Positions 19,901-45,130 of a stretch of 49,481 nt of DNA are shown here, piece by piece. Location of the stretch: positions 1 through 49,481 of the IMG/VR virus record IMGVR_UViG_3300012202_000002; one strand, given 5' to 3'. Numbering within the stretch: the stretch's first letter is position 1; every line of letters starts with the position of its first letter. The position numbers and the translations under genes were made by a program. Origin of the DNA: a virus. The notes under the pieces are model-generated. The model saw nothing but the letters and a program-made list of their open reading frames with translations, did no database searches and was not told where the DNA came from.

Positions 19901-20684
19901 TAACACCTACATTCCTTTCGAGTCGACCCCGCTGGCGGTTCCATTCGGTATGATCGGCGCGTATGAAGATGCGCAGCGCTACGAGAAACAAACCAACGCT
20001 TTCAAGTCGCTCCTCTACACCGCTTCCAACGGCGCGGCTTCAATCGTCGACCGAAGCTATTTGAAGGGCGTGACTCAGCTCCTCGACGCCTTCCATGGCC
20101 GAGCCGATGCCACCGGAGCCGTCAACGCGATGCAAAACGAGATTGCTTCGATGAAGAATTTTATCCCCGTTGTCGGCTCCAATTTCGCGACTCAGTTCTA
20201 CCGCCAGTTTGTTGATAACAAGATGTACCAACCTAACTCGGACGCGGACGGGCCACAGGCAGCCATGCAGACGCTTCTGCGCGACGTGCCTTTTACCTCT
20301 GGCGCGTTTGGCGCTCAGCCCAGGCTCAATATCTTAGGCGAACCAGTCCGCACCAGCCCGCTCACGCACCGCTTCTGGTCGACCGGCACTGACGACAGGG
20401 TCTGGAATTGGCTCACTGAACAGGATGTGCCAATCGGTAAACCATCCAAGCAAACCAAGCTCTTGGGCGATCCAATGACTGACGCCCAGTTCTATGATTA
20501 CAGCGCTTTCCGGGGCCAGACCGTCAAACAGTCGATCTACGATCAGATGGATAATTTGACCAAGCTCGATCCCGATGAGCGCAAGAAAGCGATCCAGAAA
20601 ATCGAGAACCGCGCGGATGCGTTGGCCAAGCAGCAGCTGATCAAGGGCGAGAAGCCCGATCTGAATTTGCAGCCCGGTCGCTAG
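13911..20684 (+). CDS. Giant polyvalent ejected protein with zincin and kinase domains
   Basis: 2257 residues. The N-terminus is Pro/Ala-rich. A zincin-type motif AVHEIAGHNGIRR sits at about 624-636 (HExxGH, H626/E627/H631), as in polyvalent phage proteins. Residues about 825-1035 match the polyvalent-protein kinase domain: RYLIKT (K880), FDAHPGNVL (D1007, N1012) and PVDVIP (D1026) as catalytic and metal-binding positions. Long coiled coils cover about 1090-1600. The C-terminal part has hydrophobic segments (GFMGTALTASFYLLAK near 1950) and the FRFGN/YIPFEST-type region common to large polyvalent proteins. It probably enters the host with the DNA. The ATG at 13911 is preferred over a TTG 24 bases upstream. 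Confidence 0.85.
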   Translation: MAAPSQPAELPTPTELPPELGAQPTAPESVLAPYAGELLKQTRATAPANADIPALSDAAGALLEKQKQSGAWAAAPYAGIYAAGKTLSSWATEPLLNSADVLDPSYKYMSSTPERLQELKSAAQSEYAAINDKDFQHHKYNDEARMSALRGDMSAIDRAMQRKVEPNAPNTFQENIAGTLRAEVDPNQQPRTSLLGETVAPDKPWTPPSPLYADTWQSKIASGLGGMLPYVATGMLGETMGAAAELGGFTAQSAAGMREQAKTAGLPEEQQQKAAQMGALEGPINMATFRAMNMMPWLKGEGSRTVGEFLQNTAKRAATFEVGSEAQRIADNVVVQASGIDPKRKWSEGLGQDLVTNAVTGVLFSGIAEGPSFALKAMGKARGQVYQGAPGAQPEGTIPGERTATGEPVTPGAAIPTQEEAAKQRAEAQQTAFAAFEPGAPEAPPGSPESPLARRAVEPVVPATAAEEAPPTRAQISDHLDQVEEELGPRGRALLADQRTLPRRYDELLAANGQNRNNFKVIYDTDTGDIIVNPNNITSRAELNDALVRTVLPESLRDKATIIPVDSFHDHAADPAIADMLAEDPNSDQTKWAVANPATGQVYINAGKAAQDPANGVREAFKSAVHEIAGHNGIRRLFTDPEFLRDEFVRIYNGMEQGGMGQQIASMFGHTMESLAREYAFGTERPDGSWAMDNWAKAQMGDELLARYAERFSVAELDRAPNVIQKMVGMVRDGLLTHMGLKFNDTEAFDLIRKSWKAADPERIPSSVTALQARRISRSYVDPRDESQRAVERSTREFFDVARRVSESGRPVEPEHGNGTSVQQILDSSDRLGAHARSTGRIYDDGTLGARTSRSRPVGDNAEHVLYDPIEPGRNRYLIKTNQPGGWYGPYGLSAAKVGSGLNAETAPAFHPENVRAGRYDQNAATAEQYATRLGLSNQLFNTGYQLEGFKHEPVNDIWSYVVSQPRFDNHRLATYEEIARYMSERGFEPLDDRTYYDPQRQIGVFDAHPGNVLTHNDTGKVQPVDVIPMRLGGEFADHFAKLLDDPARLQGVDVAALERQLAGMGIDVDLTRPTPEQAVQEKEAAAQLEAQRQTEEAQLIAKNRAQGGNLSPEERARLDELQFGLTYKRDVESELGPGTEEVPKQVLKVAQATIDAMSPGQALREAARKTIKNPLDPVAVRAAAASPTQAVYEKTGKRVWEPQAEAIYRENNNDVGQVARALMSDKYGSDTSAYTYAQVVNDLRDMRAANAGFPVYQAQLDALNSRLNKWFFDKGTEWGQEGAARNNAWYGHDGVLSKYQKQIADENEKKVRRDPGFRDAVDKTRDQLRLVGERAIEDAKPVIEKAQEAHDRAMPYRIAEALTDEVARAMKLAGEGANVPPDFIQRFENSVKAQIRQQLPKIDRLTLQKISETDRARQVIYSWDTYREVYERAIDEMRHGMDENSLSLFLQNLDRNLDTPLGEGRLKGVLREAGVKIDDLVRQHRANVGSTALTLAQTLSEGSHLTSQQSLALQRVIETHIATAVNQKTRKVFDDIISRANNGNPLKSGRPITMKRLVDLVNMGAFDDRQVTEALAPVFGAKSFDPEVSARIRALGDQLEEIKRQGRGSAAILANIQEMQRALARWRFDSMGPGKQAGEMAMNMYMGNLLSGIPTHVVALTSDFFNGMGNVATRLLATRQFEAFPEVLYAIGKGFARGADTFASIMRTGYDPASNVDPNDLLNGGKRYISPVNSLETDPSQRILKKYGLQVLGMPIDWYKYIGRSITAAHSLMYEGWSAPIKYLSAYDAIRKDGSLSQGEALKSAHEAMWGDEARVQAAKQQAAAEGLTGQQARLRTQEIIDSTLDQGIRDIGDYYGRHTIYTQNPQGLLGSVGRLLNQLAREHPAARIVAPFTTVVSNLLNNSLDYSPVGLLRGRSLETAEKYLTSGGEKMSDAQLNMLRNDLLIKGFMGTALTASFYLLAKQMGWQISGAGPSDPRLIKQMRANGWIPNSIRFGNTYIPFESTPLAVPFGMIGAYEDAQRYEKQTNAFKSLLYTASNGAASIVDRSYLKGVTQLLDAFHGRADATGAVNAMQNEIASMKNFIPVVGSNFATQFYRQFVDNKMYQPNSDADGPQAAMQTLLRDVPFTSGAFGAQPRLNILGEPVRTSPLTHRFWSTGTDDRVWNWLTEQDVPIGKPSKQTKLLGDPMTDAQFYDYSAFRGQTVKQSIYDQMDNLTKLDPDERKKAIQKIENRADALAKQQLIKGEKPDLNLQPGR

Positions 20685-20964
20685 CTTCTTTCCAGGCTTG
20701 GTCGGTTGGTTCTTTCAGAAACCCGAGCCGATAAAAAATTGTGAGCTGGTAGTCGCGCGCCCCACGGCACAGATGCGTCTGCGGCTTGCCTGAGAGGCTT
20801 GGATGATGGCAAATCTGGCTCGCGCGTGTGATGCAACGCTCGATCACGCTGGATGCCAAGCGCTCGTCGACATAGCGCCCACGCTCATCGGTCCGCAATA
20901 CGCAAGACGCGCATTGCTTTGGCATCACCGGCCAGTCGCGGGTGTCTTTCTTCCTTCGGCGCAT
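20641..20964 (-). CDS. Small Cys-containing phage protein (CASC...CHHP type)
   Basis: 107 residues from ATG 20964 (or 94 from ATG 20925). KQCASCVLRTDERGRYVDERLASSVIERCITRASQICHHP and THLCRGARDYQLTIFYRLGFL form a pattern I have seen in unannotated phage proteins. The Cys/His set suggests a small metal site. It is the last gene of the leftward operon and lies just behind a U-rich hairpin terminator, so it would need read-through. Its 3' end overlaps the convergent polyvalent gene by 44 bases. No Shine-Dalgarno sequence is seen at either start. Confidence 0.65.
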   Translation of the reverse strand: MRRRKKDTRDWPVMPKQCASCVLRTDERGRYVDERLASSVIERCITRASQICHHPSLSGKPQTHLCRGARDYQLTIFYRLGFLKEPTDQAWKEASDRAANSDRASRP

Positions 20965-21000
20965 AAAAAAAAGACCCGGAGCAAGTTTCCCCACTCCGGG
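20965..21000 (-). terminator. Rho-independent terminator of the leftward operon
   Basis: On the minus strand CCCGGAG (from 21000) pairs with CTCCGGG (to 20975), with a 12-base loop, and after two bases runs into eight U residues (20972-20965). It follows the leftward gene at 21085-21327 and stands immediately before the ATG at 20964, so it may attenuate that last gene. Confidence 0.75.
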
Positions 21001-21002
21001 CC

Positions 21003-21027
21003 AACCAACAGCGTCACTGAACCAACA
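21003..21027 (+). promoter_or_regulatory. AACCAACAG ... GAACCAACA leader motif on the plus strand
   Basis: AACCAACAG (21003-21011), eight bases, then GAACCAACA directly before ATG at 21028. This is the same motif as in front of five leftward genes, but facing right. The frame it would open is antisense to the leftward gene at 21085 and looks like a shadow, so the function of this copy is unclear. An AAATCCTATTAA half-dyad follows at 21039-21050. Confidence 0.4.
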
Positions 21028-21084
21028 ATGACGTGTCGAAATCCTATTAACATAGGGTTAATGTCGGGTCAATCTCGGAGAACC

Positions 21085-21327
21085 TCATTCGCCTCCGTTT
21101 TGCTGGCCATTGACGGAAACTGGTGGCTGCTCAACCAACACACTTCGAACATCACGAAACGCGATGAAGGAAGCCGCTCCCCCTTCAAATACGATCAGAT
21201 GTCCCGTATCAGGCGGAAAATAAATCCAATCTGGACGGGTCACCCTAATCAGGGTCCCACCGCTGGTTTCAATCAGAAATGGCCGAAATGGCCGATAAGC
21301 TGCCTGTTTGTGAATCTGCTCAATCAT
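21085..21327 (-). CDS. Small conserved protein (PFRPFxIxTSGG type), unknown
   Basis: 80 residues from ATG 21327: MIEQIHKQAAYRPFRPFLIETSGGTLIRVTRPDWIYFPP then HLIVFEGG. This resembles a short beta-rich protein type found in many soil bacteria and phages, with no known activity. A longer frame from 21369 would overlap the previous gene and the perfect palindrome at 21340-21354, so 21327 is preferred. Confidence 0.72.
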   Translation of the reverse strand: MIEQIHKQAAYRPFRPFLIETSGGTLIRVTRPDWIYFPPDTGHLIVFEGGAASFIAFRDVRSVLVEQPPVSVNGQQNGGE

Positions 21328-21339
21328 TCTCGTCTTTCT

Positions 21340-21354
21340 AAACCTAATAGGTTT
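21340..21354. promoter_or_regulatory. Perfect 15-bp palindrome of the operator family
   Basis: AAACCTAATAGGTTT is a perfect inverted repeat around one central base. It is the most symmetric copy of the AAAYCCTA family. It ends at the stop codon of the upstream leftward gene and lies 13 bases before the next start at 21327. It may be a protein-binding operator or an mRNA hairpin. Confidence 0.55.
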
Positions 21355-21803
21355 TATTGCCCCCGGCAATACCGAACCAGTCCGGGCAGCTCTAACTCCA
21401 GGCTCCGAGTAATCTGTTCAATGTAATCACCGGGATCGAGCCGGATCTGGTAAGGCTCAAAACTGATCGCCATCAGCTTGGCAAAGCTCGGAACGTCAAT
21501 CACCTCCGGGACACTCACGCTTTCGCCGCTAGAGTTGGTGGCCAGGACCAGCCCATAGCCGCACAACAGGCCATTGCGGATCTTGAATCGCGGCCAGACG
21601 GGCTCTCGCAACAGCCCGTTATCATCTACCCAGATGTCCAGGTCCAGCTTGCAACCAGCGTAGGGCGCACCTAACCGGCACACGGTAAAGCAATCGCACA
21701 TCAGCACTTGATGCCATACGTGGATTTCGTTCACGATTTCAATCGCGTGGACCTGCGCCTTGAACGGATCGATGAAAAAGCCTCGCAAGAATTTCGTTTT
21801 CAT
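21354..21803 (-). CDS. Phage early protein, DUF3846-like, unknown role
   Basis: 149 residues from ATG 21803, two bases after the preceding leftward stop (a start at 21824 is also possible). FIDPFKAQVHAIEIVNE, CDCFTVCRLG, LDIWVDDNGLLREPVWPRFKI and GLLCGYGLVLATNSSGE follow the order seen in DUF3846-type phage proteins (early, small, antirepressor- or defence-neighbouring). The match is by pattern only. GAAGGG ten bases upstream may serve as ribosome site. Confidence 0.7.
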   Translation of the reverse strand: MKTKFLRGFFIDPFKAQVHAIEIVNEIHVWHQVLMCDCFTVCRLGAPYAGCKLDLDIWVDDNGLLREPVWPRFKIRNGLLCGYGLVLATNSSGESVSVPEVIDVPSFAKLMAISFEPYQIRLDPGDYIEQITRSLELELPGLVRYCRGQ

Positions 21804-21804
21804 T

Positions 21805-22014
21805 TCAATCGAGCCCTTCGCCATCACCTAGATGTAGTATGGCTACTTGACGCCCTTTCTCGTCCAGCTTGGCCAGATAAGCGCGAATCTGCGGTTTACG
21901 CGAGTTTCTGCCTGCCTGATACGCTTGTGGGTAGCCTTCCTCGCGACCCTGTTTCTGGCCTACTGCCAGTCCGGCTAGGAAGCCGATAATTGCGCCTACT
22001 AATAATCCTATCAT
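21805..22014 (-). CDS. Small membrane protein of the early operon
   Basis: 69 residues: an N-terminal glycine-rich membrane helix (MIGLLVGAIIGFLAGLAVG) and a charged cytoplasmic tail. It is preceded by the AACCAACAAC ... AGAACCA leader, without Shine-Dalgarno. It could be a superinfection-exclusion or other membrane-acting early protein. No family is recognised. Confidence 0.7.
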   Translation of the reverse strand: MIGLLVGAIIGFLAGLAVGQKQGREEGYPQAYQAGRNSRKPQIRAYLAKLDEKGRQVAILHLGDGEGLD

Positions 22015-22034
22015 TGGTTCTTTCGTTGTTGGTT
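22015..22034 (-). promoter_or_regulatory. Leader motif before the small membrane gene
   Basis: On the minus strand AACCAACAAC (22034-22025) is followed by GAAAGAACCA and then ATG. It matches the leaders at 22494, 22839, 23742 and 24094. No Shine-Dalgarno sequence is present between motif and start. Confidence 0.6.
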
Positions 22035-22086
22035 CGCTGGTTAGTTCCAGCAGTCTGGCGACCGTCTAGCCCGATCGCCAGCATAG

Positions 22087-22260
22087 CTAAAACTTCCGTC
22101 CGTGACCTCGTGGTTGCTTGGTCAAGGTCGCGTTATGCGCCTTGGCCATCCGCATCGTTAGCCCTCGGGAGTGATGCTCCGTGTGATTATGCACCTTGGC
22201 CACGTGCACCGTTCCGAACGCTATGGTGCCAGCGCCGAGCAAGTGGATTATTCCTCTCAT
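22087..22260 (-). CDS. 57-residue His/Lys-rich small protein
   Basis: The ATG at 22260 overlaps the stop of the upstream leftward gene as ATGA, so it would be translationally coupled. The translation begins with a hydrophobic stretch (GIIHLLGAGTIAFGTVHV) and continues His/Arg/Lys-rich (HNHTEHHSRG, TKQPRGHGRKF). It is a plausible small membrane-associated or nucleic-acid-binding peptide. It fills an otherwise empty gap in the operon. Confidence 0.5.
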   Translation of the reverse strand: MRGIIHLLGAGTIAFGTVHVAKVHNHTEHHSRGLTMRMAKAHNATLTKQPRGHGRKF

Positions 22261-22493
22261 CCGCGCCTTTCTGCTAACTGCACTTGGTAGCTGTCCAGTT
22301 CGCCTGTCACCCGTTCAAATGCCGCTACCGCTTCCTCGATTCGCCCGACCGTCACGACCTCGCCTTCACCCCAGGCCAGCCAGTAGCCTCTGGAGCGCTC
22401 AAGCTTATGCAATCGACCGTAGTGAGCAGCGCCCTTCACGATCACATAGTCGTGGACTAGGAGCGTCACATCGACCATTCCGAATACGTTCAT
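22257..22493 (-). CDS. Small early protein, unknown
   Basis: 78 residues from ATG 22493: MNVFGMVDVTLLVHDYVIVKGAAHYGRLHKLERSRGYWLAWGEGEVV, then a helix. It reads as a small beta barrel plus C-terminal helix. The ATG at 22493 is chosen over 22553 because it directly follows the shared leader. No family is recognised. Confidence 0.72.
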   Translation of the reverse strand: MNVFGMVDVTLLVHDYVIVKGAAHYGRLHKLERSRGYWLAWGEGEVVTVGRIEEAVAAFERVTGELDSYQVQLAERRG

Positions 22494-22522
22494 CTGTTTG
22501 GTTCTTTCTTTACTGTTGGTTT
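22494..22522 (-). promoter_or_regulatory. Leader motif before gene at 22493
   Basis: On the minus strand AACCAACAG begins at 22521, followed by TAAAGAAAGAACCAAACAG and ATG. Motif and order match the other leftward leaders. Confidence 0.6.
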
Positions 22523-22577
22523 TTGCAAGAGTCGCACAGTTTCTGATAACCATGCGACTCTTGGATTTTGGACGGCC

Positions 22578-22838
22578 TTAAGCCGCTACTAATTCAGGCG
22601 TTTCCACCTTGGCTCGCTTGCCTCGCTTGCTCGTTATCGGAGCACTCGGCTCGGCGAAGATTGGTTTGGTCGCTTGCAATATCCAGGCGATCTCCGCATG
22701 CAATTGGCGCTTGGTCGCCTTCCCGATCCAGCCGGAATTGTCCGTGCCTAGGATCTTATGATTCAGCTCGTTCACACGGTCCCGCAGCGTACCCAACTCG
22801 CAGGGATCATAGAGGTTTCCGATTTCGCTTCTCGTCAT
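22578..22838 (-). CDS. Small helical early protein, unknown
   Basis: 86 residues from ATG 22838. The first part is helical (ELGTLRDRVNELNHKILGT), then GKATKRQLHAEIAWILQATKPIF and a basic tail (SKRGKRAKVET). It could bind nucleic acid. The ATG at 22838 directly follows the shared leader, so the longer frame from 22877 is not used. No family is recognised. Confidence 0.7.
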   Translation of the reverse strand: MTRSEIGNLYDPCELGTLRDRVNELNHKILGTDNSGWIGKATKRQLHAEIAWILQATKPIFAEPSAPITSKRGKRAKVETPELVAA

Positions 22839-22867
22839 AGTTTTTTTCAGTTTCTTTTCTGTTGGTT
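22839..22867 (-). promoter_or_regulatory. Leader motif before gene at 22838
   Basis: On the minus strand AACCAACAG begins at 22867, followed by AAAAGAAACTGAAAAAAACT and ATG. The second AACC element is replaced by AAACTGAAAAA, the most divergent leftward early copy. Confidence 0.55.
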
Positions 22868-22922
22868 GCAGCTTCACTGCTGCCTACTGGCCATCCGTAG
22901 ACGGCCAGTGTGGCAACTGTCC

Positions 22923-23741
22923 TTATCTGCCCAGGATAAAGTTGATCGCCTTGTCAGCTTGGCTCGCCGCCGTCACTAGCACGGTCGGGTCCTCCTTCAG
23001 CCTGCCTAGCCAGTTCTGCAGATAGGCCACGCTGTTGCGTTCGACCTGCTCATAGGTCCCACACATGTGGTCCAGACCACACGCTCCGATCTCCGCCACC
23101 AGTTCTTCCTTCCGATAAAAATCGTCACCATGGCTCTTGCCGAAGGTCCGATTTAACCGGCTCTGGCTTCCCGTCGAATGGACCAGCTCATGGAATAGGA
23201 CGTTGTAGTAAGCCGCCGAACTCACAAAGCTGCCACGCTTGGGCATCTCGATTTTATCCACTGCTGGCATATAGTGAGCATGCTGGAACCCATGTTTCAC
23301 TTGCGGGCCTCTGTCGCTGTAACCTTTGACGATTCGCTCAGCGGACAGGATCTCTGGATTGATCGGTTCAGCACTCGGCAGTCCGTCGCAATCACTCGCA
23401 TTAATTACCGTGTAGTAGCGCATCAAGTAACCCATGCGCTCTTCCTTGGTTCCATCGGCCAGTTTCTTCTCGTAGGGCTCACGCTTCACAAAGAGAATTG
23501 GCCATCGTTCCGCATCCGTCTTGATCTCTGCGCCAAGCTCCTTGGCTTGGTTGTAGGTGAGGAACCGCTTGTCCTCATATCCGCTATAGGCCAGCATCAT
23601 TGCATTGATGCCAGTGTATTCGCGGCCCTTGATATTACGCGCCGCTTGGGATGCCACTCGCCACGGCTTCTGCCAGGGCAACACTTGGCTAGTCTCGATT
23701 AACTCGATGAGTCGGTTAGTTACAATTTCGATTGGTTTCAT
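22923..23741 (-). CDS. ardC: ArdC-type anti-restriction protein
   Basis: 272 residues. The N-terminal domain (about 1-115: ITNRLIELIE-type helix, LPWQKPW, GREYTGINAMML, FLTYNQAKELGAEIK) matches the ssDNA-binding domain of ArdC. The C-terminal domain is a zincin with LFHELVHSTG (H184, E185, H188) and a downstream EELVAEIGA that would supply the third zinc ligand. ArdC proteins coat incoming single-stranded DNA and protect it from restriction. An early gene beside other small early genes fits protection of newly entered or replicating DNA. The start follows a clear copy of the shared leader. Confidence 0.92.
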   Translation of the reverse strand: MKPIEIVTNRLIELIETSQVLPWQKPWRVASQAARNIKGREYTGINAMMLAYSGYEDKRFLTYNQAKELGAEIKTDAERWPILFVKREPYEKKLADGTKEERMGYLMRYYTVINASDCDGLPSAEPINPEILSAERIVKGYSDRGPQVKHGFQHAHYMPAVDKIEMPKRGSFVSSAAYYNVLFHELVHSTGSQSRLNRTFGKSHGDDFYRKEELVAEIGACGLDHMCGTYEQVERNSVAYLQNWLGRLKEDPTVLVTAASQADKAINFILGR

Positions 23742-23763
23742 TTTGTTGGTTCTGCTGTTGGTT
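23742..23763 (-). promoter_or_regulatory. Leader motif before ardC
   Basis: On the minus strand AACCAACAG begins at 23763, followed by CAGAACCAACAAA and ATG. This is the most compact copy and shows both AACCAAC elements. Confidence 0.62.
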
Positions 23764-23764
23764 G

Positions 23765-23992
23765 TTAGTCGTTGTAGCCAAACGCAAACCTAGTCACGAT
23801 CGGCTGGTACCCGGTTATGTGTGAGCGTCCAGTCTCAAACTCGGCTAACACCACTCGTTGCCGATCGGCCCTTGGAAGTGCCAAATAGTCAGCCGGAGAC
23901 AGCTCTATGATTCGCGTGCTCCAGTGTCCACCTATCCGAACGCTCATGCTCCCGTCCTCATGCATCACAAGCTTGTTTGGTGAGTAGCGCAT
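23765..23992 (-). CDS. Small early protein, unknown
   Basis: 75 residues: MRYSPNKLVMHEDGSMSVRIGGHWSTRIIELSPADYLALPRADR. Unlike its neighbours it has a Shine-Dalgarno sequence (GAGGAGGG about nine bases upstream, inside the previous small gene). It is two bases from that gene's stop, so coupled translation is likely. No family is recognised. Confidence 0.7.
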   Translation of the reverse strand: MRYSPNKLVMHEDGSMSVRIGGHWSTRIIELSPADYLALPRADRQRVVLAEFETGRSHITGYQPIVTRFAFGYND

Positions 23993-23994
23993 TC

Positions 23995-24093
23995 CTATTT
24001 GCCCTCCTCGCTACCCAGAACTTCGTTCCACGTGAGCGTAATGAGTGAATCGCTCACCTCGTCGTAGACTATCGCCTTGATCTGTTGGTTCAT
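23995..24093 (-). CDS. 32-residue first gene of the leftward operon
   Basis: The ATG at 24093 directly follows a clear copy of the shared leader. The frame reads MNQQIKAIVYDEVSDSLITL then TWNEVLGSEEGK. It is acidic and short, with its 3' end carrying the ribosome site of the next gene. It may be a leader peptide or a real mini-protein. Motif, spacing and coupling support it. Confidence 0.55.
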   Translation of the reverse strand: MNQQIKAIVYDEVSDSLITLTWNEVLGSEEGK

Positions 24094-24116
24094 TTTGGTT
24101 CGCTTACTGTTGGTTT
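24094..24116 (-). promoter_or_regulatory. Leader motif at the operon head
   Basis: On the minus strand AAACCAACAG (24116-24107) is followed by TAAGCGAACCAAA and ATG. It matches the other leftward leaders in order and spacing. Confidence 0.6.
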
Positions 24117-24164
24117 GCTGGAATTTTTGTCCAGTGAGCCAATGTTCCACACTTCAACCAAAAC

Positions 24165-24189
24165 TGTCAAATCCTAACAGGTTCTGACA
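24165..24189. promoter_or_regulatory. Dyad operator in the divergent control region
   Basis: TGTCA (24165-24169) and TGACA (24185-24189) flank AATCCTAACAGGTTC, which itself holds CCT AAC AGG. On the minus strand TTGACA (24170-24165) could be a -35 for the leftward operon. It combines both half-site types of the genome-wide dyad family. Confidence 0.5.
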
Positions 24190-24842: not shown

Positions 24843-25458
24843 GGACTACAATAGATCCGCCATCATTCGGCCAGCTTTGGCCTTGCCATTAGCTCGGCAC
24901 GATTAGCTCGTAAGCAGCTCGGCATCAGGATGATGCACAAGGAAACCGATAGTTCGTGTGCGACCGTCCCCCCGTCGACGGGTGGGCAGGAAACGCGCGA
25001 CGCCGCCTCACCCGATACCCCAGGTTGGATAGATTCTTATTTTCTGTGGTGAGACGAGAATCCTTTTTTTTGGAGGTGACTGATTATCCGATTATCGGAA
25101 GTCGATAATTTGGTTTGGAAACGAGGGATCTAGGCATAGGAGTTCCTCACCGGGGGCTTACGGTTTTGGGATGGGACGAGCTTGCTCGCTCCGCTGGGTG
25201 CTCCGCACGGCCAAAGGATCTACGATCCTCTGGACACCTTCTGCCGGTACCGCTTCGCTACCGTCGCGCTAGCGCTCCGGCCCGGTATGCCGTAGGCGTT
25301 TTTTTTTCTTTGGTCGATGAAATTCGCGGCAGCGCTTTCGCTGGCCACGTCAGTGAGGGGACTATTCTACTAAAAGGAGTCAAGGATAGAGTCGAGCAAA
25401 AACGATATTATCGATGAAGTAGTGGGTGAGTATTGATTAAATCGATGTGACAAAAGCT

Positions 25459-25584
25459 GTTAGGATTTGATAGGAATTGTTCCTCGTGGAACATGTCTTC
25501 GGGAAAATGGATATAAGACTGAAGTCCAATATTTCTGGTATTAATAGGTTTGACAGAAACTGATGGCTATTACTAGGTTTTGTA
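25459..25584. promoter_or_regulatory. Cluster of three dyad half-sites before the gene at 25595
   Basis: GTTAGGATTTGATAGG (from 25459), TTAATAGGTTTGACAG (25541-25556) and TACTAGGTTTTGTAGG (25571-25586) are three similar sites, the last two 29 bases apart. TTGACA (25550-25555) with TACTAG (25571-25576) would give a promoter with a 15-bp spacer. It is the densest cluster of this motif in the genome. Confidence 0.55.
25478..25493. promoter_or_regulatory. parS-like palindrome
   Basis: TGTTCCTCGTGGAACA differs by one central base from TGTTCCACGTGGAACA, a known form of the bacterial ParB-binding site parS. It is intergenic and inside the control region. Only one copy was noticed. It may recruit host ParB, or be an unrelated 6-bp inverted repeat. 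Confidence 0.45.
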
Positions 25585-31133: not shown

Positions 31134-32696
31134 CTAGGAATTAGCGGGTTGGGCGGAAGGAGGGTAGCCATCGACGTAGGATTTGCAACGCCCGCGCGGG
31201 GAGGGAGTAGTGGGAGCGGGCCAGCCATCGATGAAAGATTTAACGGAATGGGTTTTGGAGTGAGAGGGGGGAGGATAGGCGGTGACGTAGCTTTTGGCGA
31301 TTGGAGTAGAAGCCTTGCTGGGAGGGGTGACGGCACCGGCTTGTCCACTGCCTGAACCACCGCTACCGCCGCCACCACCGCTGACGGGGATAGTCAGGAA
31401 TTCGTAGGCACCCATATCCCACAAGCCATCGCCGCCGCGGGTATTACCATCGGGGTCGAGTTGGACGGAGTGGGTAGCGCCGTTGGGAGGAGAGGTAGCG
31501 GGATTAATGAGAGCGCGCCCGACGTTAATCCCGCGGGCGTTGGCGCCGAAGAAATGGAAATCGCCGCTATTGGGGGCTTTGAAGGGCGGGACGATATTGT
31601 AGAGAGCGCCAGGTTCACCTGTGGGATTGGAGGTGTCGTAGGCGTTATGGTCGTGGGCCCACCCGCCTTGGAAGCTGGCACTGGCCCCTACCAGGATATT
31701 GTTCTGGAACTCGCAGCCTGAGATGGTGCCGGTGCTGTTATCGAGTCTGGCACCCAAGGGGAGATGATAGATGGAGTTATTCCAGATATGGACATCGGTG
31801 GCGTTGGCGGCTTGATCGACCTCGAAGGCTCGAGCATTGGAGCTAGGCCAGTCGGCTGCGCCGAAGAGGCAGTTACCGTAGATCCAGGCGTGAGTGGTGT
31901 TGAAGTTAAGGAAGATGCCTTCGACGGTGAAATTGTAGCAGCGGTTATTACGGACAGTGACGTTGGTGCATTCGCCGAAACTTATCACGTTGGGATGCAT
32001 GACACCTGGATTACCGGTGCCGGAATCGTGCAGCAGGCAACCTTCGATGAGCATGTTATTGAAGACACCGGCATTAACGGCAAAGAAGATAGAGGTGTCA
32101 TGCGGACCACCGACCTCGCAGGAGGAAATCGAGTAATCGGACTTCAGTGGGGTGCCGGTGATGTCGAACCCGCGCATGTCGCCGACCTGGGCACTGATTC
32201 CCGGCCAGATGGAGATGCAGGAAATGTTCTTGAGCACGATGTGATCGGTAGGGTTGTTGCCGCTCCAAACACCGGCTTCGCCTCCTCCACTTCCTCCGGT
32301 GTTGCCCCATTTAACTAGGAAAGCAGAGGCCAGCCCAATCGGAGCGCTTCGCCCGTCGAGGGTGACGTACCGGACGGGGCTAGAAAGAGCGCCGATAGTA
32401 ATTCCTACTCCACCGACAGCGTTGATAACGATCTGGGTTGTGGCAAAAGATGGGCTCCAGCCGGGAGCAGCTACGGGAACTGCATCGGAAGAGATCGCTC
32501 GCAATATCTGGATCGGCTGACCGGCTACTCCCCCTTTGTTGATTGGCAAAGCTTGATAGTTGCCGCCAGCTACCCAGATGTTGTCTCCAGATCTGACACT
32601 TACCCAATTGATGTTGGCGAATTCAGTGAAGGCGTTATTCCAATCGCTTCCGTCACCGGTTCCGGTGGCGGCTGTGCGGACGTAGAAATTAGGCAT
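31134..32696 (-). CDS. Parallel beta-helix tailspike-like protein
   Basis: 520 residues. The N-terminus (MPNFYVRTAATGTGDGSDWNNAFTEFANINW, then GDNIWVAGGNY) is the start typical of right-handed beta-helix proteins. Regular turns follow: IVLKNISCISI, DYSISSCEV, MLIEGCLLHDSGTG, VTVRNNRCYNF, AWIYGNCLF, VHIWNNSIYHL, GCEFQNNILVG. After a Gly/Ser hinge, the C-terminus carries three repeats (KSYVTAYPPP, KSFIDGWPAP, KSYVDGYPPS). It could bind or cleave host surface glycans. It is alone on this strand, between early genes and attP. The ATG at 32696 is preferred over an extension to 32981 that covers the zinc-ribbon gene. Confidence 0.82.
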   Translation of the reverse strand: MPNFYVRTAATGTGDGSDWNNAFTEFANINWVSVRSGDNIWVAGGNYQALPINKGGVAGQPIQILRAISSDAVPVAAPGWSPSFATTQIVINAVGGVGITIGALSSPVRYVTLDGRSAPIGLASAFLVKWGNTGGSGGGEAGVWSGNNPTDHIVLKNISCISIWPGISAQVGDMRGFDITGTPLKSDYSISSCEVGGPHDTSIFFAVNAGVFNNMLIEGCLLHDSGTGNPGVMHPNVISFGECTNVTVRNNRCYNFTVEGIFLNFNTTHAWIYGNCLFGAADWPSSNARAFEVDQAANATDVHIWNNSIYHLPLGARLDNSTGTISGCEFQNNILVGASASFQGGWAHDHNAYDTSNPTGEPGALYNIVPPFKAPNSGDFHFFGANARGINVGRALINPATSPPNGATHSVQLDPDGNTRGGDGLWDMGAYEFLTIPVSGGGGGSGGSGSGQAGAVTPPSKASTPIAKSYVTAYPPPSHSKTHSVKSFIDGWPAPTTPSPRGRCKSYVDGYPPSAQPANS

Positions 32697-32720
32697 GTTT
32701 TTTTGGGTTTCTCTTGGGTT
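32697..32720 (-). promoter_or_regulatory. Variant leader motif before the tailspike
   Basis: On the minus strand AACCCAAGAGAAACCC (32720-32705) is followed by A7 and CATG. It resembles the AACCAACAG ... GAACCAA leaders of the early leftward genes with AACCC in place of AACC, and it also lacks a Shine-Dalgarno sequence. Confidence 0.4.
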
Positions 32721-32795
32721 GGCGGGACGATTGGCTAATGATGATAACCTACCTCCCATACAGTTTCCAGAAGCTCTAGAACCAAACGACGCAAG

Positions 32796-33269: not shown

Positions 33270-33590
33270 ATGAATCCATATCAACGGCTCCTCGGAGTCA
33301 TACAATCGAACGGCAAGCTCAATAGCTATTTGGAGAGCAGTTGGGCACGCCGGAATTACACCAGCGAGAACGCCGTCTTTGTCGAGTTTTACCAGAGCAA
33401 CCGCGACGATGTTTGGGAAGTCTTAGGCGATAAGGCCAGGGTTTCAAGGCGGGGGTTGGCCCGCTACGTTGGTGATCTCATCAGCCGATACCGAGTGGCA
33501 AGGGCTCAAGACTTCGAACACGGGCTTGGCATGGAAGCCTTCGAGATAGTGGCTCGGTGGGCAAAGCCAGCCGCTAAGGAGGTGCAGTGA
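33270..33590 (+). CDS. Small protein coupled to the integrase
   Basis: 106 residues, helical and basic (NPYQRLLGVIQSNGKLNSYLESSWARRNYTSENAVFVEFYQ, then KARVSRRGLARYVGDLISRYRVARAQDFEHG). It overlaps the integrase by four bases. Position and charge suggest a directionality or DNA-bending factor, but no family is recognised. It would be leaderless or nearly so. Confidence 0.65.
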   Translation: MNPYQRLLGVIQSNGKLNSYLESSWARRNYTSENAVFVEFYQSNRDDVWEVLGDKARVSRRGLARYVGDLISRYRVARAQDFEHGLGMEAFEIVARWAKPAAKEVQ

Positions 33591-34813
33591 GCAAAATCAG
33601 GACTGTAATCGAGGATAGCGCGCTGCCCTCAGGATGGATAAAGTACCGGAGCGAAACAACCGGCAAAATTACTTTCCAGGTCACAGCCGGAGTGGTAAAC
33701 GGCAAAAAGATGCGCCAAGAGTTTGGCGAGCATCGTTACGGTTCGGTTCGCAATGCGCTGGCAGCAGCCAAGAACTGGGAAAGCGAAATGGAACGCGAGA
33801 TCAGAGTGAATCGCTCTAGCGTCATTGAACTTCCTCCTCGCGATCGCTGGGTCTACTTGGCCTACATCGAAAAGATCCGCGAAGCTGGCATGACGCTCCA
33901 AGAATGCATTGAGGAGGGGCTCAAACGCCGTCAGGAACACACGGTTAAGCGAAGCATTACGGTACAGCACGCAGTCGAAGAGTTTCTCCGCTACAAACGC
34001 GCTCAGAAGTGTAGGGAGAGCTATTTCAAATCGATGGGACCAATGCTGAAAGGTTTTGCCAAAGGCTTCGATGGGGCCAAGCTCAATGAGATCACCCACG
34101 AGCAGATTGAGGAATTCTTGGGTCGTCGCCAGATAAGCGACGGCACCTGGAACAACTGGCGGCGGGATTTGCGCACGCTTTTCAACTTCGCCAAGAGCGA
34201 GCGTAATGGCTGGATCAAGGTCAATCCGGCTGAGAGCATTGTGCACAAAAAAGTCGACCGGGGAGCAGTGACGATCCTCCAAATCGATGAGGCTAAAAAG
34301 CTCAATGAGGCCAAAAAGGTCTTGGCTAAAGCGGTCGAATTTTATCCTCGGCTGGTGCCGTTTTTGGCTCTTGGTATGTTTGGTGGGATACGCCGAGAAG
34401 AGCTGCAAAACGCGCAGTGGGAAGACATCCATTGGGAGCATGGAACCGTGGAAGTGCATAGCGCTAAAAACCGAGACGTGCCTAGTCGCTACGTTCACAT
34501 GCAACCAGTCCTGGTTGCGTGGCTCACCAAGTACCGGCAGGAGTCCGGTCCGATCTGCACGATGCAGTACGCCCGGCGCAATGATCTGCAGGCCCTGTCC
34601 ATCAAAACCGGGGTCGATTGTAGCGATAACATCTACCGGCATTCCTTTGGCTCCTACCATTACGCGGCCTTCGAAGACAAACAGAAGACGATGCTAGAGA
34701 TGGGGCATACCAGCCAGGCGACCTTTGATCGCTACTACAAGCGGGCGATCCCGAAGCGTATTGCCCTTACCTACTGGGAGCTGACACCAGAGGTCGTGCT
34801 CCCAGCTGCATGA
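33587..34813 (+). CDS. int: Tyrosine integrase
   Basis: 408 residues, GTG start with AAGGAGG five bases upstream, the best ribosome site in the window. An N-terminal arm-binding region and a core-binding helical domain (about 120-220) precede the catalytic domain: GMFGGIRREEL (Arg269), YRHSFGSYHY (R351-H352), MGHTSQATFDRYYKR (His374 and Tyr383 or 384). It catalyses site-specific recombination between attP and a host tRNA-Leu gene. The RHSFGSYH pattern is typical of verrucomicrobial integrases as I know them. It follows a small coupled gene and converges on the RHH gene. Confidence 0.93.
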   Translation: MSKIRTVIEDSALPSGWIKYRSETTGKITFQVTAGVVNGKKMRQEFGEHRYGSVRNALAAAKNWESEMEREIRVNRSSVIELPPRDRWVYLAYIEKIREAGMTLQECIEEGLKRRQEHTVKRSITVQHAVEEFLRYKRAQKCRESYFKSMGPMLKGFAKGFDGAKLNEITHEQIEEFLGRRQISDGTWNNWRRDLRTLFNFAKSERNGWIKVNPAESIVHKKVDRGAVTILQIDEAKKLNEAKKVLAKAVEFYPRLVPFLALGMFGGIRREELQNAQWEDIHWEHGTVEVHSAKNRDVPSRYVHMQPVLVAWLTKYRQESGPICTMQYARRNDLQALSIKTGVDCSDNIYRHSFGSYHYAAFEDKQKTMLEMGHTSQATFDRYYKRAIPKRIALTYWELTPEVVLPAA

Positions 34814-42397: not shown

Positions 42398-43407
42398 AAG
42401 TCGCTATCGCCTTCAGTGATGTGCCCTCGTACATCAACAAAGACAAGGGCATGCCAGGTCATATCGAGCCGGGCCCGCTTAATCAAGCGCAGTTGGCCTG
42501 GCTCTGGTTCGATTGGGTAGCGGAGCTAGGCGGAGTGGAAAATCACGAGCTGGTGGTTTTGGTGCCGGAAGGGCAGGAGTTACCGGAGTCGGTCAAGGCT
42601 TGGAAAAAGGTTTACCGGATCACTGATCGCCACAAGATTTCAACCTGGCCGGAAGGTCCCAACGCGAGTTTCCAGCAGGTTATCTGGTGGATGACTTTGC
42701 GGAAAATCGGCGAACCGGTTTTCTGGATTGAACCAGATGCGATCCCGCTTAAACCCTATTGGATCGATGCTTGGGTAGAGGAATATCGAAGCTGCAATAA
42801 ACCTTTCATGGGCGCACTCCAGGCGGAGATTAAAAACTATTGCCCAGCGCACATGACGGGTAACGCGATCTATCCGGCTCAAGCGGCGACACTCGCGCCG
42901 AAGCTCCTGCAAGCCAAACATTCGGCCTGGGACGTTTGGTCAGCGCCGGAGGTTCTTCCCCAGATGCACGCGACTAAGCTCTTGCAGCACGCCTGGCAGC
43001 ATGGGCCGATTACCACGATGGCGGAGTACCAAAAGGAGATTGATCCCGCAGCCAACATTTTTCACACCGATAAGTTCGGAGCGCTAGTCAAGCTGATGCG
43101 CGACCAGCGCAACGGTACAGTGATGGAACCGGATGCCGGACAAATCATCCGTCGAGTCTTTAACACCGAGGAACTTAAGCCGGGGCCAATCACTCCCCTA
43201 CCAGAAACGCAGAATGTTTCTGTGTTACCGGCTGCTCACACGGTTGAGAGCGTCTTGCAACTGATCAAGGATGTCATCAAAAGCGAAAAAGACCGGATCA
43301 AGCTGATGGAATTTTTGCGCGATGGTCAGTACCTCTTAGTCGAATTCGGACGGGGCCGACAATCGCGGGAACCAAAGCGTCTGGCTCGCAGCCATGGCCG
43401 AGCATGA
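42394..43407 (+). CDS. GT-A-like glycosyltransferase
   Basis: 337 residues, GTG start. VFWIEPDAIPLKPYWIDAWVEEY (Glu113/Asp115 as the D-x-D-like metal site), KPFMGALQ and HMTGNAIYPAQA follow the order of GT-A-fold transferases of this phage type. The C-terminal third is helical. Placed directly before the terminase and overlapping it, it could glycosylate phage DNA or virion proteins. The sugar donor is not indicated. Confidence 0.75.
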   Translation: MKVAIAFSDVPSYINKDKGMPGHIEPGPLNQAQLAWLWFDWVAELGGVENHELVVLVPEGQELPESVKAWKKVYRITDRHKISTWPEGPNASFQQVIWWMTLRKIGEPVFWIEPDAIPLKPYWIDAWVEEYRSCNKPFMGALQAEIKNYCPAHMTGNAIYPAQAATLAPKLLQAKHSAWDVWSAPEVLPQMHATKLLQHAWQHGPITTMAEYQKEIDPAANIFHTDKFGALVKLMRDQRNGTVMEPDAGQIIRRVFNTEELKPGPITPLPETQNVSVLPAAHTVESVLQLIKDVIKSEKDRIKLMEFLRDGQYLLVEFGRGRQSREPKRLARSHGRA

Positions 43408-45130
43408 ATGTTTCAGCGGGCTCAAGTTTCCAGCGCATTGGAGTGAGGCGTACAAGCACTTCTACTGCGCACGCAAAGGGTTGCGGCCAGGTCGCTACTA
43501 TCACCGCAAGCGCATCATAGAGCTTCTTTGGAACCAGCCAGAGGACCTCGTTTGGCATTCCTGGATGGACCGGGCTCTGAGGAGTTTCTGTTCCTACGAT
43601 TGGCTCACCTGGACCGGGCCAGCGGCCAGCGCCAAGAGTTCAAACGCCAGCCTATTCGCGCTGGTTTACTGGTTAGAGAAACCGCACCAGACCAGTGTCA
43701 TCATGGCCAGCACCACGCGCAGCGCGCTAGCCAGACGGCTCTGGTACTACGTCCAGGATTACCATTCGAAGATCGATCCCGATTTCGGTTACGTCGGTGA
43801 ACCGATCTATTCCCAGTACATGATCCGGTGGCGCGAAGGCGACATGAAGAACGGAATTTACGGGCTAGCGATCGAGGACGGCCCAATTGAAGAAGCACTC
43901 CATAACTTAATCGGTTACCACAATGAACGGGTGTTACTCGTCGTCGATGAGGCGCAAGGTACGCGGGAAGCAATTTTTAGAGCCTGCGACAACCTGGCCA
44001 AAAATCCTGAATTCAAATGTCTGCTCTTGGGCAACGCGGAAAGCCGCGAAGATCCTCATGGCCGCTTCAGCGAGCCGATCAATGGCTGGCTTTCGGTTGA
44101 TCCCGATAAGGACGAGGAATGGCAGACTCGTGGTGGCCCGAGTCATGGTCGGGGCCTCTGCGTATTCTTTGATGGGCGCAAGAGTCCGGCGATCGTCGAG
44201 CAAGATGGAGCGGAGAAATACCCCTTCCTCATCAACAAGAACCAGATCGACGCGGCGCTGGATTATTACAAAACTCCTGACGACCCCCGCTTTTGGAGCC
44301 AGTCAATCGGTTTCTGGCCGCCAGTCGGCTTTACCCGAACGGTTCTGGACGAGGTTATTGTCCGCAATAATCACGTGATGGAACCAGCGACCTGGTACAC
44401 CAGTTTCAAAAGCGGGGCAGCGCTCGATCCATCCTACGAGGGGGGAGATCGGAAAATATTTTTACCGTTCCGCTTTGGCCGGATTCCTTTATCGGAAGAA
44501 GGCCAATTTAGCTGGCAAATTGAATTCGGTACCCCGGCTGAACTCAAAATTTCGGTACGCGATCCACTAGAGCTGCATTACCAGATTATGCAGCAATGCG
44601 TTGAGCGCTGCAAAGTGCTCAACATTTCGCCCGACCATTTTGCGCTTGGCTCCAGCGGTGAAGGCGGCGGACTCCTCTCGATCTTTCGGCGCGAATGGGG
44701 CCCGGTAGTCGGAATTGAAGAAGCGGGGCGAGTCAGCGACCGGCCAGTCTCGGCAGCGAACCCAAAACCCTGCAATGAAGAGTATGACCGGGTTGTGTCG
44801 GAGCTGATGTTTGCGGTGCGCGAGTTTGCCGTCAACGACGCTCTGCGCAACATGCCCGAGCAAGCCGTTAAAGAGCTGTGTGTGCGCAAATGGGAGATCG
44901 CCAATAAAAAGATCCGGGTCGAAACCAAGGACGAGCTGAAAGGCCATTACACGAAGAGCCCGGACTACGGCGATGCGGTTGCCTTCTGTGTGGAACTAGC
45001 GCGTCGGCACGGCGCGATTGCCGGTCACATCATGCGCGGAGAAGACCGCAAATGGATGAAGGACGCGCAAGCGGAGTACGACAACGCGATGGTTGACCAG
45101 GATTCTTTCCTCTATGCAACGACTGAATGA
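43394..45130 (+). CDS. terL: Terminase large subunit
   Basis: 578 residues. The ATPase domain has Walker A GPAASAKS (75-82) and Walker B VLLVVDEAQG with D185-E186. The RNase H-like nuclease domain has ALDPSYEGGD (D345) and PDYGDAVAF (D527) as metal-binding Asp residues. It cuts and pumps DNA into the prohead. It overlaps the glycosyltransferase and the next gene. The circular contig would fit headful packaging or cohesive-end circularisation; the sequence does not decide. Confidence 0.93.
   Translation: MAEHECFSGLKFPAHWSEAYKHFYCARKGLRPGRYYHRKRIIELLWNQPEDLVWHSWMDRALRSFCSYDWLTWTGPAASAKSSNASLFALVYWLEKPHQTSVIMASTTRSALARRLWYYVQDYHSKIDPDFGYVGEPIYSQYMIRWREGDMKNGIYGLAIEDGPIEEALHNLIGYHNERVLLVVDEAQGTREAIFRACDNLAKNPEFKCLLLGNAESREDPHGRFSEPINGWLSVDPDKDEEWQTRGGPSHGRGLCVFFDGRKSPAIVEQDGAEKYPFLINKNQIDAALDYYKTPDDPRFWSQSIGFWPPVGFTRTVLDEVIVRNNHVMEPATWYTSFKSGAALDPSYEGGDRKIFLPFRFGRIPLSEEGQFSWQIEFGTPAELKISVRDPLELHYQIMQQCVERCKVLNISPDHFALGSSGEGGGLLSIFRREWGPVVGIEEAGRVSDRPVSAANPKPCNEEYDRVVSELMFAVREFAVNDALRNMPEQAVKELCVRKWEIANKKIRVETKDELKGHYTKSPDYGDAVAFCVELARRHGAIAGHIMRGEDRKWMKDAQAEYDNAMVDQDSFLYATTE

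Follow-up and report, generated by a model that had tools for sequence, protein, structure and literature searches.

The window analyzed here is the whole of IMG/VR virus record IMGVR_UViG_3300012202_000002 (49,481 bases), which derives from a soil-type phage. Because an integrase gene is present (Table 1), the phage is probably temperate. Its leftward operon, which spans positions 24093 to 21085, includes an ArdC-like antirestriction gene and several small genes, and five of its start codons share an A/C-rich leader built on the word AACCAACA. We describe this leader, its occurrence in other phages and in Verrucomicrobiota genomes, and a hairpin at position 21003 that carries the complement of the leader. 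Gene starts and the gene set were picked by hand from the open reading frames (ORFs) of the window.

A repeated A/C-rich leader in the leftward operon

Five leftward start codons (24093, 23741, 22838, 22493, and 22014) had been reported in an initial annotation of the window to carry AACCAACA followed by G or A, and all five copies were found at these places. The first base of the word lies 22, 22, 29, 28, and 20 nucleotides (nt), respectively, upstream of the A of the ATG (overall range, 20 to 29 nt), and a second motif, GAACCAA, adjoins the ATG in four of the leaders (i.e., all except that of 22838). GGAG, GAGG, and AGGA are missing before all five ATGs, in agreement with the annotated lack of a purine ribosome site. 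The word is also missing, as had been claimed, from the coupled genes 22260, which overlaps the upstream stop codon (ATGA), and 21803, which starts 1 nt past the upstream stop, and from gene 23992, which has the Shine-Dalgarno (SD) sequence GAGGAGGG and likewise begins close behind a stop codon (2 nt). At the other starts of the window with a gap of >8 nt, AACCAACA was not found. Further copies lie at 24083-24090, just past the ATG of the first gene (ATGAACCAACAG), and at 23744-23751, where the copy is the second module of the 23741 leader. The AACCC variant that had been noted before the tailspike-like gene at 32696 is present, and looser AACCC contexts occur at starts 32696, 5727, and 4960.

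TABLE 1 Coordinates of the leaders, the 21003 locus, and the genes discussed in the text
Feature	Position	Strand	Description
Virus record	1-49481		Linear, IMG/VR
Leader of 32-aa first gene	24093..24115	-	AACCAACAG TAAGC GAACCAAA ATG
Leader of ArdC-like gene	23741..23763	-	AACCAACAG CA GAACCAACAAA ATG
Leader of 86-aa gene	22838..22867	-	AACCAACAG, then A-rich; no GAACCAA
Leader of 78-aa gene	22493..22521	-	AACCAACAG TAAAGAAA GAACCAAACAG ATG
Leader of 69-aa glycine-zipper-like gene	22014..22034	-	AACCAACAA CGAAA GAACCA ATG
Variant leader of beta-helix (tailspike-like) gene	32696..32721	-	CCAACCCAAGAGAAACCCAAAAAAACATG
Candidate anti-leader hairpin	21003..21039	-	UCGACACGUCAUUG-UUGGUU-CAGUGACG-C-UGUUGG-UU
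Intrinsic terminator	20965..21002	-	13-pair stem, 4-nt loop, U8; directly behind the anti-leader
Rightward ORF	21028..21426	+	Judged not a gene
First gene of operon, 32-aa ORF	23995-24093	-
ArdC-like antirestriction gene	22923-23741	-	PHROGs/Pfam family search
86-aa gene	22578-22838	-
78-aa gene	22257-22493	-
69-aa glycine-zipper-like gene	21805-22014	-
DUF3846-like protein	21354-21803	-	Weak family match
80-aa protein ORF	21085-21327	-
Integrase	33587-34813		phrog_1, Phage_integrase
aa, amino acid. The upper coordinate of each of the five full leaders is the first base of the word.

Counted against dinucleotide-preserving shuffles, as the initial annotation had suggested, AACCAACA is strongly overrepresented in the window (12 found, 1.13 expected; largest count in a shuffle, 5). 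GAACCAA alone gave a weaker, approximately twofold signal (14 found versus 7.1 expected), with 1 of 100 shuffles reaching 14. The word is concentrated at starts: 6 of its 12 copies fall within the interval from 8 to 35 nt upstream of a start, which takes in only 1.7% of positions (binomial P = 2e-8), and the other 55 of the 56 arrangements of A5C3 have at most two start-preceding hits each. The leader starts, besides having no SD sequence, show low structure, with a mean unpaired probability of 0.67 for the five, versus 0.50 for 45 other phage starts (P = 6e-4). The word is found on the coding strand, its spacing to the ATG varies little, and it precedes only uncoupled genes whose starts have no SD sequence, so that it reads as a start signal.

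Alternatively, the leaders may owe nothing to a specific word: any unstructured A/C-rich stretch ahead of the start would suffice, and the repeats would have spread by duplication within the operon. Looser A/C-rich contexts do occur at starts 5727, 4960, and 32696, in Bacteroidota, initiation has been linked not to a word but to key adenines and little structure (PMC6847099), and some of the leaders share direct repeats longer than the word (22014/23746/24095 and 22505/22851). Against this explanation, which we regard as rather unlikely, AACCAACA has six start hits while other words of the same composition have at most two, and the same word occurs in Verrucomicrobiota genome G002 and in other phages (see below). 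Pairing of CCAAC with the GUUGG of 16S rRNA helix 45 was also considered and set aside; the match to the phage word extends over only 5 nt, and the GUUGG strand of this helix is base paired in the ribosome.

Most of the small ORFs of the operon have no family in PHROGs or Pfam, and the 80-aa protein had no match in the Verrucomicrobiota genomes and four other genomes. Phage contig L129 encodes a 43% relative of the DUF3846-like protein, and L127, an 88%-identical phage, does not extend over the leftward operon. Upstream of the operon, a 26-nt inverted pair (24164-24189 on the minus strand and 25448-25473 on the plus strand; TGTCAGAACCTGTTAGGATTTGACAG and TGACAAAAGCTGTTAGGATTTGATAG, 85% alike) places one copy ahead of each of two divergent early transcripts and is a candidate operator or promoter element.

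The leader in other phages and in Verrucomicrobiota

AACCAAC leaders recur in other, unrelated viral contigs. In a low-GC phage group with a major head protein, AACCAACA-N-AACCAACA-ATG precedes a gene of 328 to 340 aa downstream of the head gene, and contigs L095, L496, and L014 contain several AACCAAC leader copies each; these three loci were picked by motif scans, so that only the extra copies count. Members of the low-GC group include L424, L438, L450, L387, L444, and L473, among others, and the head gene itself has AACAAACAAA-type leaders. Arrays of TGTTGGTTCA repeats, possibly iterons, were seen in intermediate-GC viral contigs (L417, L410, L084, L400, and others).

In G002 (Verrucomicrobiales bacterium isolate Gx485_bin111), AACCAA is the top enriched 6-mer before starts (17 versus 1.1 expected). 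Because this genome was noticed through the motif, the count was redone on contigs not chosen for it, giving 11 versus 0.80 expected. Its two-module layouts match those of the phage (AACCAACAGAAAGAACCAACATG, AACCAACCCTAACCAACAGAAAGAACCAACATG, AACCAACCGAAAGAACCAACATG, and AACCAACAACAGAAAGAACCAACATG), and the genes that bear them encode Fe2+ transport, autotransporter, PEP-CTERM, ABC-transporter, and DUF5069 domains and are thus chromosomal in kind. Across 241 Verrucomicrobiota genomes, a looser two-module pattern was approximately twice as frequent as its reversed control (our tally from the result table), and several of these genomes contain near-identical leaders. The exact composite by itself was rejected as a phylum marker, as a scan of 85,000 genomes returned mostly scattered chance matches across all phyla.

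The initial annotation had assigned the leader to one transcript class. Within the phage this stands, with all five full copies in the leftward operon; the leader is not private to the phage. The accompanying suggestion of a translation-initiation signal is supported by the placement at starts, the coupled genes lacking the word, the open starts, and the recurrence on Verrucomicrobiota chromosomal genes, although recruitment of the ribosome itself is something we infer. Instead of a ribosome signal, the word could be a site at which a phage regulator binds DNA or RNA; examples would be the target of an RNA-binding repressor and an antitermination or anti-processing signal. Its repetition on one transcript at a fixed distance before genes would suit such a site, as would the strand-specific hairpin with its complement at the operon end. 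We nevertheless consider this very unlikely, given that in G002 many unrelated chromosomal genes have the word ahead of them, as do genes of unrelated phages, and that the word is missing exactly at the coupled genes.

The host is likely to belong to Verrucomicrobiota. Verrucomicrobiota genome G196 includes a distant prophage-like region with the terminase, middle, and portal-position genes in the same order (25%, 31%, and 20% identity, respectively), and among the genomes searched, such syntenic relatives (20 to 31% identity) were found in G196 only. SD-like starts account for only 6% in this genome, and CCAACC is enriched. The terminase had a best match of 2e-4 in 247 Bacteroidota genomes, with none comparable, and no match in 249 Pseudomonadota genomes. 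This synteny, the SD-poor starts of G196, and the lack of a comparable terminase in the Bacteroidota and Pseudomonadota genomes searched make the host assignment likely but do not prove it.

The protein at 43394-45130 (plus strand) is presumed to be the terminase large subunit solely because its size and gene-order position would fit. It had no match in Pfam, PHROG, or phage records and no meaningful match in the PDB; its only relatives were those in L127 (88%), L128 (65%), and G196 (25%).

The 21003 locus

The initial annotation had listed a right-facing copy of the leader at 21003. The sequence is indeed present, in two copies (21003 and 21020), and no credible gene lies behind it. The evidence favors an antisense element directed against the leaders over one more leader. 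Read leftward, the locus forms a hairpin of 14 pairs with a UUGGUU loop, directly followed by an intrinsic terminator (Table 1). The hairpin folds with -16.4 kcal/mol leftward versus -8.0 kcal/mol rightward, and hairpin plus terminator with -40.1 versus -20.3 kcal/mol; it is strong on the leftward strand only, because three G-U positions become C-A mismatches on the other. A 136-nt stretch around the hairpin has a z score of -2.67 relative to dinucleotide shuffles.

The hairpin includes UGUUGGUUC and CUGUUGGUU, the exact complements of GAACCAACA and AACCAACAG, i.e., of the second and first leader modules, in its loop and 3' arm. Since the G/C-rich terminator dominates full-length duplex energies and renders them uninformative, co-folding was used instead. 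Among 51 starts, the five leader starts rank top (-16.4, -13.2, -13.1, -12.1, and -6.3 kcal/mol), while 1% of random 60-mers reach -5.8 kcal/mol; the ranking is largely due to the complementarity of the words. The locus resembles GcvB in having a G/U-rich segment that is complementary to the leaders of several genes and ends in a terminator.

On the plus strand, the same locus reads AACCAACAG-CGTCACT-GAACCAACA-ATG ahead of ORF 21028-21426, and it might therefore be the ordinary leader of a rightward gene, with no anti-leader RNA. The layout (AACCAACAG-N7-GAACCAACA-ATG) is that of a perfect leader, and leaders that follow a terminator do stand before real genes in other phages. We judge this reading unlikely. 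With a codon model built from the phage itself, the ORF scores -27.7 bits, and it runs antisense to the leftward ORFs 21085-21327 and 21354-21803, the latter of which scores +19.6 bits but is part of the training set; the model has little power for small ORFs, several leftward ones scoring approximately zero or below and some chance antisense ORFs slightly positive. In addition, the ORF has no homologue in phage records, and its ATG lies within the hairpin, with a start openness of 0.43 versus 0.61 to 0.75 for the leader starts. A gene at 21028 was dropped on these grounds of codon score, homology, and structure.

On the other side of the terminator, the ATG of a leftward ORF (20641-20964, minus strand; codon score slightly negative) comes right after U8, so that its start would need read-through or a leaderless message.

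A scan of the window against Rfam 15 at the gathering threshold gave no match, including to c4 antisense RNA. Scanning viral contigs for an anti-leader followed by a T run yielded at least 119 hits, and those checked were mainly leaders read backward behind a two-sided terminator, or repeat arrays. In L427, L435, L492, L463, and L494, TTGTTGGTTAAT (TTGTTGGTTAATTGTTGGTTAAT) repeats lie after a stop codon and ahead of a terminator; these contigs were ruled out as an independent anti-leader case because their genes lack AACCAAC leaders.

Proposed function and comparison with known systems

Taken together, AACCAACA(G/A)-N2-8-GAACCAA-ATG is probably a host-type, SD-independent translation leader to which the phage adds a second layer, an anti-leader RNA. 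The leader would be a single-stranded A/C-rich stretch that binds the 30S subunit directly, probably via protein bS1, and keeps the start codon open, each uncoupled gene in most of the leftward operon having its own copy. The signal would be of a type in use in at least one lineage of Verrucomicrobiota, employed here by a temperate phage whose host probably belongs to that phylum. The operon transcript would end in a hairpin RNA that presents, right ahead of the terminator, sequences complementary to both leader modules; on accumulation, this RNA would pair with the leaders and lower the translation of ArdC and its neighbors. The outcome could be a built-in timer (feedback), which would make sense since antirestriction is required chiefly on entry, or silence of the operon in the lysogen. 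That the anti-leader RNA turns down the gene set through the common SD-free leader, and could also hit host mRNAs bearing it, is a tentative proposal to which we give somewhat less than even odds.

Several observations weigh against parts of this interpretation. The anti-leader comes from one locus and is unproven. Its first anti-word is in the loop; the longest fold holds the second in base pairs of the stem, and a shorter RNA leaves it free, so that full pairing would need opening of the hairpin or a later RNA start. No consensus promoter was found just upstream of the candidate RNA, for which reason it may arise by processing of the operon 3' end. A scan of 388 Verrucomicrobiota genomes for the anti-leader gave hits in 8 genomes, near background, with no clear counterpart, and queries with ArdC, the tail protein, and DUF3846 recovered no close relative of the operon. 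In a pooled random sample of Verrucomicrobiota, A-rich and SD-like words lead rather than AACCAA, which makes the leader a lineage trait at most, not a phylum-wide one. The host assignment draws on a terminase of 25% identity and the leader style. The second layer is favored over its rivals, though not proven.

For bacteria that make little use of SD sequences, the way in which start codons are recognized is still to be settled, and hardly any such work has dealt with Verrucomicrobiota. A short word common to a phage operon and to chromosomal genes of this phylum offers a start signal that can be put to the test. A genuine 3' RNA would show how sets of genes can be silenced via a non-SD start signal and would be a natural probe for that signal; it would be a base-pairing regulator that targets such a signal itself.

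The leader word was not found described in the literature searched (open-licence papers only). Initiation in SD-scarce Bacteroidota has been described in terms of base preferences and low structure (PMC6847099), and Akkermansia and IMCC26134 have been named as SD-scarce Verrucomicrobiota (PMC10783764). The phage leaders resemble these systems in having starts with no SD sequence, low structure, and an A-rich upstream context, and differ in the repeated two-module word AACCAACA..GAACCAA, where only base preferences had been described.

In enterobacteria, translation is enhanced by CA-rich and ACA words placed ahead of starts and by CA repeats even when these follow the start codon, ACAA repeats can direct initiation in the absence of an SD sequence, and the G/U-rich segment of GcvB silences C/A-rich enhancers (PMC3879156). 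Likenesses to the phage system are an A/C-rich, position-tolerant word upstream of the start, a complementary G/U-rich RNA, and one RNA with several targets. However, GcvB is a bacterial RNA whose target enhancers stand beside an SD sequence, whereas the phage leaders have none, and the candidate RNA maps to the end of the very operon that it would target; enhancer activity and silencing are putative here. The P1 c4 RNA is complementary to the ribosome-binding region of the phage ant mRNA, and the c4 RNAs of P1 and P7 share with the candidate a phage origin, a target in the ribosome-binding region, and, at least for the first anti-word of the candidate, complementary words that are probably in loops (PMC12197685). 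Unlike c4, which controls ant, the candidate would address five leaders, lies downstream of its targets, and has no Rfam match. By analogy with both systems, the anti-leader RNA would work like GcvB and the P1 c4 RNA.

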